Positions 3,779-48,224 of a stretch of 64,000 bases of DNA are shown here, piece after piece. Position numbers and translations under genes: made by a program. The notes below the pieces were generated by a model. The model worked only from the letters and a program-made list of their open reading frames with translations. It had not been told where the DNA came from and did not search any database. This DNA is from an uncultured Poribacteria bacterium (GTDB lineage: Bacteria > Poribacteria > WGA-4E > WGA-3G), in contig OX639973.1 of NCBI GenBank assembly GCA_951828385.1, positions 1,178,001-1,242,000 of the forward strand. The letters are read 5' to 3'. Within the stretch, counting starts at the first letter, position 1, and each line of letters begins with the position of its first letter.

Positions 3779-4645
3779 ATGAAAAGGACTTTTCACGGTG
3801 CAGATCTTCTATTAAGACTTGCATTCTTGGCGGCTTTGGGATTCGCTATTTTTTCGGGGGGTGCTTATTTATATGCACGCGGCGTTAAAATAATTATATC
3901 ACCGCTTGAAATTATATCGCCGAGTATACATTTCCGTGTTAAAATCGACTGGAAAACGCCACTCATCATTGAAAAATATACCGGTCCCCAAATCATTGAA
4001 AAATATACCGGTTCCCAAAATGCCCAGGAACTGATGAAAGCGTTAGATGCGGATTACAATAAAGGACACGGAAAAACCGAAGTAAGCCTATCGCGCAAGG
4101 ACAACGGCATAGAAACTGAAAGTTATAACAGTAACTTTACAATAAGTGAGATAGATGCAAGGTATCCACGGGCAGAATGGTTTCAGCTGCTTTTGGACAG
4201 AGGCATCATCATAGGAACCCTCTACGAGTATGCGTCCACCCTGTCACAGCGGCATGCTTTGGCATTGCTGGAAGACAACCCGAATCTGTGGCAGTCAGGC
4301 GTTCTTGATATTCCACCGACAGATGACTGGGAAACGTATAAAGCAGCTTACATTGACATGCTGGTAGAAATTGAAGCCACCAAAGCGGAGATTGAACGCA
4401 GAAAGCCGGAGATTGAACGCACCAAAGCGGAAGTTGAACGCACCATGGAACGCATTAAGGAACAAGTCGAACGCGCCAAGGTGCAGATCGAACACAGTCA
4501 GAAAGACGTTGGACGTGCCCAGAAAAAGTTGAATTCACAACAACTTGAGCATGTTAGGAAACAACTTGAGCACGCAAGGAAACAGATTGTGCGCGCACAA
4601 GAGGCTTTAGAACACCTCAAAGAACCGACTCCGCCTCAGGAATAA
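3779..4645 (+). CDS. membrane-anchored coiled-coil protein (copy 1)
   Basis: 288 residues with no recognised family. Residues about 10-34 form a single hydrophobic segment (signal anchor or signal peptide). The middle contains a globular part (EIDARYPRAEW and GIIIGTLYEYASTLSQ). The C-terminal 90 residues are an E/K/R-rich periodic helix built on repeats such as EIERTKAEVERT, a clear coiled coil. A short tandem duplication (EKYTGPQI/EKYTGSQN) lies near residue 65. The leader shows a GAGG...CCTC hairpin next to the AAGGAG site and a GCGTCT/AGACGC hairpin at 3697-3717. It is probably co-transcribed with the permease. The copy at 10790 lacks the membrane segment. Confidence 0.7.
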   Translation: MKRTFHGADLLLRLAFLAALGFAIFSGGAYLYARGVKIIISPLEIISPSIHFRVKIDWKTPLIIEKYTGPQIIEKYTGSQNAQELMKALDADYNKGHGKTEVSLSRKDNGIETESYNSNFTISEIDARYPRAEWFQLLLDRGIIIGTLYEYASTLSQRHALALLEDNPNLWQSGVLDIPPTDDWETYKAAYIDMLVEIEATKAEIERRKPEIERTKAEVERTMERIKEQVERAKVQIEHSQKDVGRAQKKLNSQQLEHVRKQLEHARKQIVRAQEALEHLKEPTPPQE

Positions 4646-4703
4646 GAAAGCGGACTTCTACGTGATAGACCCTTTTGGGCTATTCTGTTCCATCGATATT
4701 GTG

Positions 4704-4819
4704 AGGCTTACGCGCTGCACGCTTTTTTGGGGTGCTGTCTAAGCAAACACCAGAAGCGCGGAATTAGCGTAAGCCTGACTCAGTATCAAACGATTAGCCA
4801 AACCGCTGTTTGGCTAATC
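4704..4819 (+). terminator. two strong hairpins after the coiled-coil gene
   Basis: A 10-bp perfect stem (4704-4713 with 4767-4776, AGGCTTACGC) encloses a 53-base loop. It is followed by an 11-bp perfect hairpin (4792-4802 with 4809-4819, GATTAGCCAAA). Neither has a long U-run, so they may be terminator, processing site or repeat. They separate the coiled-coil gene from the next promoter. Confidence 0.5.
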
Positions 4820-4866
4820 ATAAGTCCTATGAGATGAAAATTCAGGTTTTTGTTGTTTTTTTTAAG

Positions 4867-4934
4867 TTATGCACCCTTTCCCTTTCAAAATAGTATCTTT
4901 AATTATAAAAGAATAGTATCTTTAATTATAAAAG
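4867..4934 (+). promoter_or_regulatory. ECF-type promoter, site 2, with duplicated -10 half
   Basis: TTATGCACCCTTTCC starts at 4867 and TATCTTTAATTATAAAAG at 4894, again 23 bases between GCACCC and TATC. The downstream half is perfectly duplicated as a 23-bp tandem repeat (4889-4911 and 4912-4934). Only the first copy keeps the conserved spacing. The site lies before the ATG at 4994, which argues against any earlier start for that gene. Confidence 0.7.
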
Positions 4935-41828: not shown

Positions 41829-41865
41829 AAAGGTCTGCGCGGTTTGAAACCGCGCAGACCTTTTT
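41829..41865 (+). terminator. Rho-independent terminator
   Basis: A 17-base arm AAAGGTCTGCGCGGTTT (41829-41845) is answered perfectly by 41847-41863, followed by TT. It belongs to the 514-base gap 41746-42259. The start of that gap (TGTGGCACTCCCTTAAG..., then GTGTAAATCC) is related to the gap before the next HAF gene (46070-46110). Confidence 0.85.
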
Positions 41866-42259: not shown

Positions 42260-44947
42260 ATGCACACTCAGATTAGAACCAGCTTTTTATTTTACATCTT
42301 TACGTTGTTGATGTGCTTTAATTCCTTTTTCCTAAGAGACACTGCTGCACAAGACAACGCTGCATCCGCCAGCGATAACTATACCTTCGAGACGATTGAT
42401 GTTCCGGGTGTAGATTTTTTAGCAGTGACAGCAAGTAGCGACTTTGAGGATTACGCCGGCTACACCAAAAGTGCTGATGGTGAAAAAGAGGTTGCCTTTA
42501 CGCTGATTGACGGTGTTTTCACCACCTACGATTTCCCGGGATCCCAGAACACTTATTTTTTTGCGCTCGGTAATAATGGCAACGCTGCAGGACACTACGA
42601 GGATAGCGATGGGCTGTATCATGGAGTCGTCTTGGAAAATGGTGAATTGCGACAATACGACTTCCCGGATGCTGTCCAGACATTCCTTTACGGTATTTCT
42701 GATACGACAGGGGCACTGACAGGGAATTTTATAGACGCTTCTGGCGTGCGCCGTGGGTTCTCAGGAAACGAAATCATTGAATTCCCCGGAGCAGTGGAAA
42801 CTTATGCCGATTTCGTGAATTCAAGCGGTGGTATGGTCGGCAGCTACGTAGATGCTGATGGCATATATCATCCATACATACGTACCCCGACTGGCAGGTT
42901 TGTATCTCTCGACCTTCCAAGAGCAGCAAATCTGGAATACTTTTTTGTGCATGGTATCAACGATGCAAATGTTATCGTTGCCCGAACCAAAGCGGTGGAT
43001 GATGTCCCGAGCACTTATGTCGGCACGTTCCAGCAGGGCCTACAGGAATTTCAGGTTCCAGATAGTGTTAGCACGGAGGGCTATAATATTAATCAGGACG
43101 GTTCGATCGTCGGACACTATGACTCCGCAGATGGACGCAGACACGGATTTATCGCCAACCCGATAACAGACACCGCTGCGCCAGTCGATGATCAGCCCGT
43201 TGCCACACCTGCTGATTCCAACTATACCTTTGAGAGTATTGATGTTCCGGGTGTAGACTTTTTAGCCTTGACAGCGAGTAGCGACTTTGAAGATTACGCT
43301 GGCTACACCAAAAGTGCTGACGGTGAAAAAGAAGTCGCCTTTACGCTCATTGATGACGTTTTTACGACATACGACTTCCCGGGTTCGCAGAAAACGCATT
43401 TCTATGCGCTCGGTAATAATGGCAATGCCGCCGGACACTACCAAGACAGCAACGGTCTGTTTCACGGTGTCGTCTTAGAAAATGGCGAACTACGACAACA
43501 TGATTTTTCGGGTGCCGTCGAAACAGAAATATACGGTATTAGTGATGCGACGGGCGCACTGACGGGTAATTTTATAGACGCTTCTGGTGTGCGCCGTGGC
43601 TTCTCAGGCGATACAATCGTTGAGGCTCCTGAGGCATCGGAAACTTATGCCGACTTTGTGAATGCGAGTGGTCGTATGGTGGGTAGCTACATAGATGCTG
43701 ACGGCATATATCATCCTTATGCGCGCACCGCGACGGGTCGCTTTTTATCTTTCGACCTTCCACAAGCCGAAAAATTTGAATACTTTTTTGTCCACGGTAT
43801 TAACGATGTAGGAATGCTCGTTGGTCGGTCCAAAAAGGTCGGGGATGTCCCGCGCACCTCTGTCGGTTCACTCCAGCACGGGCTACATCCAGTCCAGTAT
43901 CCGGGTAGCATTAGCACGGAGGGCTGGAATATCAATCAGGACGGTTCCGTTGTCGGACACTATGACTCACCCGATGGACGCAGACACGGTTTTATCGCAA
44001 GACCTGTCTCACAAGTAGAAGCGGAAAGTTATAGCAACGCCTACACCGTCACGCTGTCTAAAGGGTTGAACATGATTTCTGTGCCTTTGGCAGCACCAAC
44101 GCCGATGACTGCAAAAAACCTTGTCGCTTTGACAGGAGCAACAACCATCATCACGCTTGATGTGGCAAGCCAACAGTTCGTCGCTTGGACACCCAGCGCA
44201 CCCGACGACGGTTTCCTGATTGAAGGCGGCAAAGGCTATATCGTCAATGTCTCACAAACCCGCAACTTTGCATTCGTTGGCTCACAATGGACAAATCAAA
44301 CCGAGGCCGCCGCAGCACCAACTGCCATATCCACGGAGATGCCGCAGGAAGCATGGGCATTTGTTGTCAGTGGACACTTGGAAGGTAAACCCGCGTTTGA
44401 CCGAAACCACCAAGTCATCGTCCGGAACCTCAGAACAAATAGCACAATAACGGCCCCGATACAAGGGGATTACTTCGCTGCTGCTACCGCTGACCTGACG
44501 CGGCGGAGCGTTGTCCGAGTTGGAGACGTGGTTGAAGTGCGTGTCATTGGTCCAGATGGAAACTTTGAATCACAAACCCTCAGTTTTACAGTGACGCCTG
44601 AGAGCTTGGCAAACGCGGTCTTGTCTGTCCGGCTTGATGACATCCGTCAACCGACGCAGAATCGCCTGTTGCAGAACTATCCGAATCCGTTTAACCCGGA
44701 GACATGGATTCCCTATCAACTCTCGGAGGACAGCCCCGTATCGGTCTCCATTTATGATACAATGGGTCAGTTGGTTCGCACACTGCCACTCGGTTTCCAA
44801 TCCGCAGGCTTTTACAATAGTCGGGAACGTGCTGCGTATTGGGATGGGCGTAATACCCTCGGTGAACGCGTTGCGAGTGGTATCTATTTTTACCAATTGA
44901 CAACGCCATCCTTCCAGCAAACACGGCGGCTCGTCATTGTAAAGTAG
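42260..44947 (+). CDS. secreted protein with two HAF propellers and sorting domain
   Basis: 895 residues, GAGG site. Signal peptide to about residue 31 (FFLRDTAAQ|D). Two consecutive HAF-repeat domains follow (about 38-300 and 318-590), each starting YTFE(T/S)IDVPGVDFLA and ending DG(S)(I/V)VGHYDS.DGRRHGFIA. HAF repeats ('extracellular repeat, HAF family') are poorly characterised propeller-like modules. Then come a linker domain (SKGLNMISVPLAAPTPMTAK), a beta-rich domain (AWAFVVSGHLEGKPAFDRNH) and the FlgD/T9SS-like end (YFYQLTTPSFQQTRRLVIVK). The doubled domain is unique to this copy. Confidence 0.82.
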   Translation: MHTQIRTSFLFYIFTLLMCFNSFFLRDTAAQDNAASASDNYTFETIDVPGVDFLAVTASSDFEDYAGYTKSADGEKEVAFTLIDGVFTTYDFPGSQNTYFFALGNNGNAAGHYEDSDGLYHGVVLENGELRQYDFPDAVQTFLYGISDTTGALTGNFIDASGVRRGFSGNEIIEFPGAVETYADFVNSSGGMVGSYVDADGIYHPYIRTPTGRFVSLDLPRAANLEYFFVHGINDANVIVARTKAVDDVPSTYVGTFQQGLQEFQVPDSVSTEGYNINQDGSIVGHYDSADGRRHGFIANPITDTAAPVDDQPVATPADSNYTFESIDVPGVDFLALTASSDFEDYAGYTKSADGEKEVAFTLIDDVFTTYDFPGSQKTHFYALGNNGNAAGHYQDSNGLFHGVVLENGELRQHDFSGAVETEIYGISDATGALTGNFIDASGVRRGFSGDTIVEAPEASETYADFVNASGRMVGSYIDADGIYHPYARTATGRFLSFDLPQAEKFEYFFVHGINDVGMLVGRSKKVGDVPRTSVGSLQHGLHPVQYPGSISTEGWNINQDGSVVGHYDSPDGRRHGFIARPVSQVEAESYSNAYTVTLSKGLNMISVPLAAPTPMTAKNLVALTGATTIITLDVASQQFVAWTPSAPDDGFLIEGGKGYIVNVSQTRNFAFVGSQWTNQTEAAAAPTAISTEMPQEAWAFVVSGHLEGKPAFDRNHQVIVRNLRTNSTITAPIQGDYFAAATADLTRRSVVRVGDVVEVRVIGPDGNFESQTLSFTVTPESLANAVLSVRLDDIRQPTQNRLLQNYPNPFNPETWIPYQLSEDSPVSVSIYDTMGQLVRTLPLGFQSAGFYNSRERAAYWDGRNTLGERVASGIYFYQLTTPSFQQTRRLVIVK

Positions 44948-45002: not shown

Positions 45003-45215
45003 TTAACTGTCAAGAAATGTTTGATAGTCAATCTCTAATTGTTTAAGAATACTTCGGAGCGTCCCTATTTTCAAATCTCTACTACCCCAATCAGGGATAG
45101 ATGCTGACAGTTTAGTTTGCGGATGTTCCCAGATACGATGGGAACCTGACCTTCTTCTCTTTATTTCTTCATAGCCAAGTTGACGCAGCTTTTTGGCTAC
45201 TTCGCGATACTTCAT
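45003..45215 (-). CDS. hicA: HicA-like toxin (mRNA interferase)
   Basis: 70 residues from the ATG at 45215 (MKYREVAKKLRQLGYEEIKR). The double-stranded-RNA-binding fold of HicA/YcfA is visible, with the catalytic-type stretch RRSGSHRIWEHP around the essential Gly-Ser-His. It is expected to cleave mRNA and be neutralised by HicB. The gene overlaps the 3' end of hicB by 47 bases, so the two are coupled in the order antitoxin then toxin. A longer frame to 45266 exists but lacks family similarity. Confidence 0.82.
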   Translation of the reverse strand: MKYREVAKKLRQLGYEEIKRRRSGSHRIWEHPQTKLSASIPDWGSRDLKIGTLRSILKQLEIDYQTFLDS

Positions 45216-45471
45216 CGATAGGCACCACCGTTTCCAATAGATGTCTAACTGTAGCATCCTCCGCATTGTCGTCTAAAATCTGAATTTCTTTAGGCAAAGA
45301 CCGTTGTTGGTGATCGTAAAGTTCAACAACAGCATAAAACGCATCAGCGACGACCTCTTTAATATCGTCTAAAGAGTCGCATTCTGTAATCAATTCGGGT
45401 AATTCTTGACAAGTTATTGTGAATCCACCTTCTGGTTGCTCTTCTAAAATGAGTGTTAGTTTACATCTCAT
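45169..45471 (-). CDS. hicB: HicB-like antitoxin
   Basis: 100 residues. Begins MRCKLTLILEEQPEGGFTIT and continues CQELPELITECDSLDDIKEV, the partially degraded RNase-H-like fold of HicB. The C-terminal 35 residues (DATVRHLLETVVPIDEVSRS) are encoded over the start of hicA and carry no obvious DNA-binding helix-turn-helix. It probably binds HicA and may control its own operon. A second, solitary HicB is at 59433. Confidence 0.8.
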   Translation of the reverse strand: MRCKLTLILEEQPEGGFTITCQELPELITECDSLDDIKEVVADAFYAVVELYDHQQRSLPKEIQILDDNAEDATVRHLLETVVPIDEVSRSSQKAASTWL

Positions 45472-45554
45472 AGTGGGTCTGTTAGTAAAAAACTATGTTA
45501 ATCTATGTCCATCTGAAAAACACAGTTCTCTACAGGATTCCTTAAGTCCCTTTG

Positions 45555-45820
45555 TAGACACCGTCGTGTCTAACCTGCCCGCATCCAGTGTCGTCTATGC
45601 ACGTCATAGAAGATAGCAGGCGATTCGCACGTAGCAAAGGAAACGCGCTACGTGGAGTAACCCTCAAAGTCAGTCCCAAAAGACTGACGCTTTATCATTT
45701 CCGAGTGTCCTCACAATGTTAAGGTTCGTCTCACTCGCGTATGAACCTTTTGCGTAGCAAAGACGTGGTTTTTGTCTCTTGTGCTTGGTTATCGCACAAC
45801 ACTACGCAATACAGTAGTGC
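45555..45820. ncRNA. candidate structured RNA in an 829-base gap
   Basis: The gap 45472-46300 holds no convincing gene but a run of perfect stems: 45555-45561/45566-45572 (7 bp), 45629-45636/45648-45655 (8 bp), 45670-45676/45683-45689 (7 bp), 45722-45728/45744-45750 (7 bp), and 45751-45758/45803-45810 (8 bp). The last encloses two inner hairpins (45762-45765/45775-45778 and 45780-45785/45795-45800), a three-way junction. CACTAC at 45801-45806 can instead pair with GTAGTG at 45815-45820, giving an alternative structure. The strand is undecided. No known RNA family was recognised. Confidence 0.4.
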
Positions 45821-46174
45821 GGAATCGAACCCCACAGAAACGCCTATCGTTTACCGTTTAACACAGAAAAATCAAGAAAAACACAGAAAAAGAACTGTTT
45901 AGGAACTACTCCTTTTTGGGTAGCCCTCTAAAGTATACAACTTTTTTCTAAACTTTGTCAACCTTTTATAGTAATTTTACTTGATTTTAGGGTATAATTC
46001 CCCATGAAACTCAATTTTAACCAATCCCGAAACTACTTATTGTGTTTTTTTAATCAACACTTATAGTGCAGCTGTGACACTCCCTTGAACCTAAAAAAAG
46101 ATGTGTAAATCCCAACCCGCCGAATTCCCGTCGTTGCTTTAAGCAGCAACCCACTTATCCGTGAAAATAAAAAG

Positions 46175-46300: not shown

Positions 46301-48118
46301 ATGTATCATTACATAAAAATCGCACTTATTCTGTCTATAGGTCTAACCCTCTGTTTCATAGGGTACACCGAGGCACAGCTCGAAAGCGAAACACCGACTG
46401 CGGATTACATCTTTGAGACTATTGAAGTCCCCGGTGTCGATTTTCTGGAGGTGACTGCGAGTACCGACTTCGGGGATTATGCGGGGAACACGCGGAGCCC
46501 TGATGGCGAGAAAACCATCGGCTTCACATTGATAGACGGTGTCTTCAGCACGTATGATTTTCCCGGCTCGCAGAACACTTATTTCTATGCGCTCGGTAAT
46601 AACGGGAACGCTGCTGGACACTACAAGGATAGCGACGGTCTGTATCATGGTGTCATCTTAGAAAATGGCGAACTGCGCCAATACGATTTTCCCGGTGCAG
46701 CCGAAACCCACATCTACGGTATTAGCGATGAAACAGGGGCACTGAGCGGGAATATTGTTGATGCAGCGGGAGTCACCCACGCTTTCTCAGGGGAGCTGAT
46801 AATTACATTCCCTGGCGCAGTCAATACTTATGGGGACTTTGTCAACGCCGCAGGGGCTGTCGTCGGCAGCTACGTGGATGCCGATGGAATGCCTCACGGG
46901 TTCGTCCGTCACCCTGACGGCAGTTTCACCACTATTGACCTTCCAGAAATTCCGAATCTTCAATTTCTATTTGTCAACACCATCACCGACCTCGGTGTTA
47001 TCGGCTTCAGAGCCAAAGCAGTAGATGATATTCTGCGCTCCTATATCCTTCTGCCAGACGACACCCTCTATGAAGTACGACTCCCAGGCAGTGCTATCAC
47101 TGTCGTCCGAAATGTTAACCAGGATGGAAGTATTATCGGTTTCTACGACACACCAGACGGACACAGACACGGATTCGTCGGTAGACCTAAAACACAACCC
47201 AACGGAGCAGGTTTCGGCAGTGTTTTTTCCATGCACCTCTCTCAAGGTTTGAACATGCTGTCTGTGCCGCTGAAACCGACTGTCCACATGACAGCACGCT
47301 CGCTTGCAGTCAAGACGGGGGCGACAACAGTCATTACGCTTGATGCTGCGAACCAAGCGTTTTTGGCATGGACCCTAAACGCACCCGACGACGGATTTCC
47401 CATCGAAGGTGCCAAAGGGTATATCGTCAATCTACCAGAGGCACGCGACATCGTCTTCACTGGGACAGGATGGACACATCAGATGCCAGCCGCTGCAGCA
47501 CCGCTAACAACAATACCCTCTCAAACGTGGGCGTTCGTTGTTAGCGGATATTTAGAAGGTATCCAGCAGTTCAACGATTACCTTGTCACAGTCCGAAATC
47601 ATCGGACCAAGACCATCATGGAGACTCGAGTGCGCGGTAATTACTTCGCCGCTGCTACCGCCGATCTTAACTACCATAGCGTCGTAGAAGTCGGGGATAC
47701 GTTGGAACTGATTGTCACTGATACCCAAGGCAACATCGTCTCAGAAAAGTTTAATTTCACGGTGAATGCCGCCAATCTCGCAAACGCTGTTCTATCGGTC
47801 AGACTTACCGACATCGGCACTCCAAAGCAAAATCTCCTGTTGCAGAATTATCCGAACCCGTTCAATCCTGAAACATGGATTCCGTATCAACTTTCCGAAG
47901 ATAGTTTGGTATCGGTCTCCATTTATGATACAGCAGGTCAGTTGATTCGCACACTTTCGCTCGGTTACCAATCTGCAGGTTTCTATAATAGTCGGGAGCG
48001 TGCGGCGTATTGGGACGGACGTAATACCCTCGGTGAACCGGTGGCAAGTGGTGTCTATTTTTACCAATTGACGACACAGTCTTTCCAGCAGACACGGCGA
48101 ATGCTTATTTTGAAGTAA
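46301..48118 (+). CDS. secreted HAF-repeat protein with sorting domain
   Basis: 605 residues, AAAAAGGA site. Signal peptide to about residue 26 (FIGYTEAQ|LE). One HAF propeller (about 32-300: YIFETIEVPGVDFLEVTAST, then YALGNNGNAAGHYKDSDGLY and GSIIGFYDTPDGHRHGFV). The linker (SQGLNMLSVPLKPTVHMTAR), a beta domain (TWAFVVSGYLEGIQQFNDYL) and the FlgD/T9SS-like end (YFYQLTTQSFQQTRRMLILK) follow. It is the most diverged of the three HAF genes, so the other two are the recent pair. Confidence 0.82.
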   Translation: MYHYIKIALILSIGLTLCFIGYTEAQLESETPTADYIFETIEVPGVDFLEVTASTDFGDYAGNTRSPDGEKTIGFTLIDGVFSTYDFPGSQNTYFYALGNNGNAAGHYKDSDGLYHGVILENGELRQYDFPGAAETHIYGISDETGALSGNIVDAAGVTHAFSGELIITFPGAVNTYGDFVNAAGAVVGSYVDADGMPHGFVRHPDGSFTTIDLPEIPNLQFLFVNTITDLGVIGFRAKAVDDILRSYILLPDDTLYEVRLPGSAITVVRNVNQDGSIIGFYDTPDGHRHGFVGRPKTQPNGAGFGSVFSMHLSQGLNMLSVPLKPTVHMTARSLAVKTGATTVITLDAANQAFLAWTLNAPDDGFPIEGAKGYIVNLPEARDIVFTGTGWTHQMPAAAAPLTTIPSQTWAFVVSGYLEGIQQFNDYLVTVRNHRTKTIMETRVRGNYFAAATADLNYHSVVEVGDTLELIVTDTQGNIVSEKFNFTVNAANLANAVLSVRLTDIGTPKQNLLLQNYPNPFNPETWIPYQLSEDSLVSVSIYDTAGQLIRTLSLGYQSAGFYNSRERAAYWDGRNTLGEPVASGVYFYQLTTQSFQQTRRMLILK

Positions 48119-48150: not shown

Positions 48151-48224
48151 ACGGTGCGGTTAGCAAACCGCACCTACCGGCCTGGGGAAAGCGGTTGCAA
48201 ACCGCACCTACCGGTCTGGGGAAA
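48151..48224. repeat. two tandem REPs, short form
   Basis: ACGGTGCGGTTAGCAAACCG (continuing CACCTACCGGCCTGGGGAAA, 48151-48190) is followed directly by GCGGTTGCAAACCGCACCTA (continuing CCGGTCTGGGGAAA, 48191-48224). The core GCGGTT...AACCGC forms a hairpin. They fill most of the gap before the threonine synthase gene. Confidence 0.8.

Follow-up and report, generated by a model that had tools for sequence, protein, structure and literature searches.

PATEs and standalone omegaRNAs are MITE-type and solo-omegaRNA derivatives of IS200/IS605 elements; they are short and non-coding, have their ends in common with autonomous elements, and may carry the guide scaffold. Within IS607 the closest described systems combine TnpA with TnpB and an reRNA: ISXfa1 (PMC10711439) and ISFba1 (PMC11061315) carry the reRNA at the 3′ end of tnpB, continuing into flanking DNA, together with an AG-rich TAM, which for the TnpB of ISFba1 is AGGAG (PMC11061315). 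The locus considered here lies in a window of 64,000 nucleotides of Poribacteria DNA, and its autonomous relatives likewise encode IS607 TnpA and TnpB; compared with ISXfa1 and ISFba1, the element in the window is gene-less, has an extra 5′ domain, and has no RAGATH-18 match. It differs from PATEs and standalone omegaRNAs in belonging to IS607 rather than IS200/IS605 and in a conserved tRNA-like 5′ module that is foreign to the autonomous element. We consider it probable, judging from sequence comparison, that this is a non-autonomous IS607 element that encodes no protein and carries an extended, trans-acting guide RNA used by the TnpB of its relatives.

A first-pass annotation had singled out positions 45555-45820 as a chain of perfect hairpins in a gene-free region. 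The perfect stems and the three-way junction are all present where it placed them (Table 1), and single-strand folds of 45540-45830 are more stable than 200 of 200 dinucleotide shuffles on each strand (z = -4.05 on the plus strand, -3.36 on the minus strand). Large ORFs are indeed absent, the region being flanked by hicB (45471, minus strand) and a HAF-repeat gene (46301). The hicB-like ORF has no match in Pfam or NCBIfam. Two paralogous HAF-repeat genes, both on the plus strand, lie on either side of hicBA and the element (42260-44947 and 46301-48118). Searches of Rfam returned zero matches at the gathering threshold in the 64 kb window and chance-like matches only at a relaxed threshold over 45400-45960; together with the compensatory changes described below, this bears out the view of a structured RNA outside the known Rfam families.

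Table 1. Features at the hicBA locus, in window coordinates
Feature	Position	Strand	Basis or remark
Whole non-autonomous IS607-type element, ~430 bp	45479..45908	-	Common boundaries of dispersed copies; empty sites
hicA toxin gene	45003..45266	-	PF07927, 63.2 bits
hicB-like ORF	45169..45471	-	Start codon 8 nt from element; named from the hicA neighbour and the first-pass annotation
Putative 20-nt guide ACCCACTATGAG..., contains hicB start codon	45459..45478	-	Adjoins scaffold end
omegaRNA/reRNA-like scaffold (model R2)	45479..45695	-	Seven covarying helices, reaching element end
Stem TAGACAC/GTGTCTA	45555-45572
Stem TCGTCTATG/CATAGAAGA	45591-45613
Stem CACGTAGC/GCTACGTG	45628-45654
Stem GTCAGTC/GACTGAC	45669-45688
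Hairpin AAGGTTC/GAACCTT and proposed pseudoknot	45702..45749	-
Stem AAGGTTC/GAACCTT	45721-45749
Three-way junction closed by TTGCGTAG/CTACGCAA, two inner hairpins, A-rich ACCA loops	45750..45809	-
Stem TTGCGTAG/CTACGCAA	45750-45809
tRNA-like structure	45811..45857	-	Alignment, covariation, fold of L070
Acceptor-like stem ACGGTA/TACTGT	45852-45857 with 45811-45816	-	91.7% of cells paired
T-arm, loop TTCGATT (TTCRATT across copies)	45817-45835	-	92.4% of cells paired
Small D-like arm, loop ending in GG	45848-45851 with 45839-45842	-	Key pair CG in 14/24, TA in 9/24 aligned copies
AGGAG, target/TAM-like motif	45909..45913	-	Flanks element 5′ end
Candidate promoter TTGACA-18-TATACT (11/12)	45932..45961	-	Consensus match only; host DNA upstream of element

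The region flagged by that annotation is about two-thirds of the real unit, 45479-45908, whose left end reads CTGTTAGTAAAAAACTATG on the plus strand, corresponding to the RNA 3′ end (..ACTAACAG), and has TAGTTCCTAAACAGTTCTTTTTC at its right end, 5′ on the minus strand. Three further full-unit copies stand in the same genome at 98-99% identity (C1:1600855, 3998016, and 4683749), and a truncated one (6260895) matches the initial 347 of 521 query bases with 97% identity; older copies, 71-82% overall and of full or partial length, include 692963 (77%), 5934605 (74%, partial), and 3748340 (82%, partial). With a longer query, identity ends sharply at about window positions 45479 and 45914. In the 97% copy (L013, G000:C1:6260860-6260895), the T-arm region is replaced by a perfect hairpin, GGTTCGGTT-TCCT-AACCGAACC. 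The annotation had held that repeats of these hairpins elsewhere would mark them as REPs. Near-identical copies do exist, but each site holds one ~430 bp unit with fixed ends in place of a cluster of short palindromes, and the copies are not REPs: they belong to a transposable element, and compensatory changes are seen in its RNA. Matches to the element occur in 28 of 97 genomes searched, nearly all of the same genus; in the GTDB collection a pattern made from its most conserved part hit 15 stretches, every one of them titled Poribacteria, and no match was found in viral contigs, plasmids, or phages. Copies at shared sites are 75-76% identical, against 81-87% for their flanks, a comparison that does not show selection in place.

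No tnpA- or tnpB-type ORF lies within 45479-45908. The last ~55 bases of the element recur alone at other loci, and among 12 of these that were examined several are ~1.9 kb elements encoding IS607 TnpA (NF033518, 155.5 bits, cut-off 110) and TnpB (NF040570, 119.7, cut-off 100); the right-end stretch held in common with these TnpA-encoding elements, at most 57 nt at 85-93%, places the unit in IS607. The best match of the relatives' TnpB is the solved TnpB-like L79 protein (9b0l). By eye, this TnpB has ALDPG (DPG) and CEAYTSKTV with the alternative glutamate (Ealt), its zinc-finger cysteines being replaced; apart from those cysteines it resembles the pro-Fanzor fingerprint described in PMC10711439, in which DPG lies in RuvC-I and the alternative glutamate stands six residues ahead of the zinc finger. 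The same right end is also found on a distinct 1.4-kb element (L049, L050, and L058) that encodes TnpB alone, a different protein that does have the zinc finger. Related tnpB loci number only two in the genome under study; tnpA is truncated there, one tnpB match contains one stop, and at both the omega end is present but shorter and divergent; a functional TnpB partner in this genome is uncertain for these reasons.

The half of the element next to hicB is, by covariance modelling, homologous to the omegaRNA or reRNA at the tnpB end of the autonomous IS607 elements. A covariance model of this half (R2) was built in RNA orientation from 24 gene-less copies with a recognisable left end (L010, near-identical, was excluded), with no autonomous elements in training. 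Of its 11 matches across 16 loci, five are to autonomous tnpB elements (L052, L053, L054, L059, and L060) at 134-168 bits, in which the homologous scaffold abuts the tnpB-side end; the remainder are to four gene-less elements and, weakly (24-28 bits), to the two tnpB loci of the window's own genome. In the four alignments shown, the match terminates at ..GAACAG, the element end. Over seven helices 98.0% of cells are paired, and 27 pairs have changes on both sides against 17.4 in shuffles, none of 500 shuffles reaching as high; in the whole structure prediction, 42 of 94 pairs have two-sided changes. Compensatory changes are abundant. Neither the RNA of the window element nor the copies tested match the RAGATH-18 reRNA family in Rfam. 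Given TnpB biology, 45459..45478, which directly adjoins the scaffold end, would serve as guide.

The 5′ half, on the same kind of comparison, has a tRNA-like fold and is an additional domain not present in the autonomous elements searched. Its model (R1) gave 15 matches over 30 loci, the weakest at 9.1 bits in the derivative L080, which is noise level, and in this 30-locus search it was absent from the autonomous elements L052-L060. Among 24 copies, 91.1% of cells are paired and the covariation score exceeds that of all shuffles; cells with two-sided changes number 84 against 35.7 in shuffles, and 13 pairs are changed on both sides, a count not clearly beyond shuffles (66 of 500 reach 13), in a control for which the D-like arm was entered one column off, with 46% paired there. 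Between the tRNA-like structure and the scaffold we propose a pseudoknot of loop CGAGTG (45732-45737) with downstream CACTCG (45702-45707); both strands of this putative helix are nearly invariant and so beyond the reach of covariation. In the window ARAGORN detects neither a tRNA nor a tmRNA, and Rfam does not assign the fold to these classes either. The nearest likeness is to mascRNA (RF01684): the element has a T-arm with a TTCRATT loop beside an acceptor-like stem, plus a small arm, but unlike mascRNA it is without an anticodon arm and its fold is the 5′-terminal part of a longer RNA. As a family assignment RF01684 was rejected, the match in L014 being sub-threshold (25.7 bits against a gathering threshold of 42.5, E 0.3). 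Another genus of the family has two weak R1 matches (41 and 36 bits), whose beginning is similarly tRNA-like but whose setting differs. At L216:174-297 and L217:1512-1641 (minus), likewise in another genus of the family, a tRNA-like structure is followed by a stem and a hairpin; by eye, the fold has an acceptor ACGCAA/TTGCGT, an arm CGTA-GACGG-TACG, and a T-arm GCGGGG-TTCAACT-CCCCGC. It borders a block that is 88% conserved, and in L216 an ORF that by eye is integrase-like lies downstream. The L216 stretch has no match in phages.

Among non-Watson-Crick cells on the minus strand, G-U pairs exceed A-C in both halves (omega half 91 to 12, 5′ half 57 to 11), in structures themselves derived on that strand; this excess points to the minus strand as the RNA strand, co-directional with hicB. 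Of 38 genomes of the genus surveyed, 19 have R1 and 25 have R2. The two partners of R2 never coincide: among 65 R2 places, 31 adjoin R1, 18 adjoin a tnpB match, 16 neither, and 0 both.

Five related genomes (L171-L174 and L176) have both the hicB flank and the far flank with the element absent. On the minus strand the hicB side of this empty site is preceded by AGGAG in L172, L173, and L176 and by altered forms in L171 and L174; read as AGGAG ACCCACT ATG, the motif looks like the Shine-Dalgarno sequence of hicB. The sequence of the putative guide also stands next to the empty site in L171-L174, and in L172 and L173 AGGAG is followed by exactly these 20 nt. Compared with the empty sites, the window is missing 35 nt between two AGGAG motifs, so that either the insertion was imprecise or a deletion came after it; at this site, with its 35 missing nt, no target-site duplication is seen and both junctions carry AG. 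Of the 32 family members whose end can be recognised, 23 have AGGAG directly against the 5′ end and nine have near variants. A second palindromic dispersed repeat, GGTGCGGTT..AACCGCACCTAC, occurs in the window at 41839-41853, 48153-48174, and 48191-48205, and, in L171 and L173, close to the empty sites as well (chance expectation 0 for each pattern).

The position just ahead of a start codon, seen at hicB, recurs across the family. At 57 of 64 R2 places (the 65, minus one with an N flank), the RNA end is followed after 3-13 nt by the start of a co-directional ORF at least 60 codons long, compared with a fraction of 0.097 of 25,600 random positions; with ATG starts only, the figures are 43 of 64 and 0.038. 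This placement is seen in 18 of 18 places with tnpB, 26 of 30 with R1, and 13 of 16 with neither. The genes behind elements, 10 of the 57 having been checked in Pfam, include those for ribosomal proteins (rpsT, S20; rpmB, L28; rplU, L21; rplR, L18; rpsU, S21), tsf (EF-Ts), trx (thioredoxin), sod (superoxide dismutase), and an NADH dehydrogenase subunit. In L074 an element copy precedes the superoxide dismutase gene, and downstream of this gene lies a T-box leader (4636-4914; RF00230, 100.2 bits). A loss of Shine-Dalgarno function at occupied sites was considered and set aside; an SD-like motif stands near the start at 25 of 57 occupied sites and 34 of 131 control ORFs, which shows no clear signal.

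We suggest that the element would specify a minus-strand structured RNA of ~380 nt, its 3′ half an omegaRNA scaffold and its 5′ half an extra module, and that IS607 TnpA would move the element in trans. Insertion beside AGGAG, often a Shine-Dalgarno sequence, would leave the RNA to be transcribed from the promoter of the host gene, here that of hicBA; the TTGACA-18-TATACT match is a candidate promoter for both. The TnpB of an autonomous relative would take up the RNA, with the first ~20 host bases as guide, and the complex would cut alleles in which AGGAG and the guide sequence lack the element, favouring its retention and spread. Such homing, by cutting element-free alleles, is standard TnpB biology. 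The tRNA-like end may, most simply, serve in processing or stability, perhaps as a site of the RNase P type, and so release the RNA from the leader of the host gene. A bolder version of this account, in which a gene-less guide RNA parasitises IS607 TnpA and TnpB, uses Shine-Dalgarno sequences as both landing pads and TAMs, relies on host promoters, and is excised from host mRNA leaders, those of essential ribosomal-protein genes included, by a tRNA-like processing module, is offered tentatively, as something possible rather than probable.

The same observations might be explained by a relic, that is, a MITE-like IS607 fragment whose RNA structure was inherited from active masters and which is itself inert. 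Members of the family such as L057 and L051 are plain internal deletions of autonomous elements and some R1 and R2 copies have decayed, as this explanation would predict, yet the 5′ domain is absent from the searched autonomous elements while conserved and covarying across many genomes, and one genome holds several recent copies; we think a relic unlikely. Some function in cis is harder to credit. The positions before rpsT, rpmB, rplU, and many other genes, which presumably still need to be translated, would fit a 5′ leader acting on hicBA and other host genes as a riboregulator or as a stand-in for a displaced Shine-Dalgarno sequence; however, the motif counts give no sign that occupied genes use something else, the AGGAG target alone accounts for the positions, and the alternative pairing does not covary, so that we regard such a leader as improbable.

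The annotation saw that pairing as typical of switches or structured RNAs; the corresponding reading is a stand-alone metabolite- or protein-responsive switch specific to the hicB locus. The alternative CACTAC/GTAGTG hairpin can be drawn, as was claimed, but its covariation is near the level of shuffles, whereas the three-way-junction helix that competes with it does covary, with 4 pairs changed on both sides; the mutually exclusive pairing on which a switch would depend is not borne out. The same ~430 bp unit stands at unrelated loci and belongs to no Rfam family, and we give a locus-specific switch almost no credence. A mobile, gene-less guide RNA thus seems to us the best account of the locus.

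Two features appear to be new: a gene-less carrier of a guide RNA with a conserved novel domain, and systematic landing between the ribosome-binding site and the start codon. Neither was found in a search of open-licence papers. In that literature TnpB was linked with AGGAG in PMC11061315 alone, no report of TnpB in Poribacteria was found, and in PMC12558985 a search for words on solo RNAs found none. If our reading is correct, the element would be an RNA-only parasite, equipped with a defined new RNA domain, of the RNA-guided nucleases from which Cas12 descends. The double role of AGGAG, as TAM and as ribosome-binding site, would explain how such elements find transcribed sites and come to be expressed co-directionally with the gene behind them, and the acceptance by TnpB of guide RNAs supplied in trans from solo copies would become testable.
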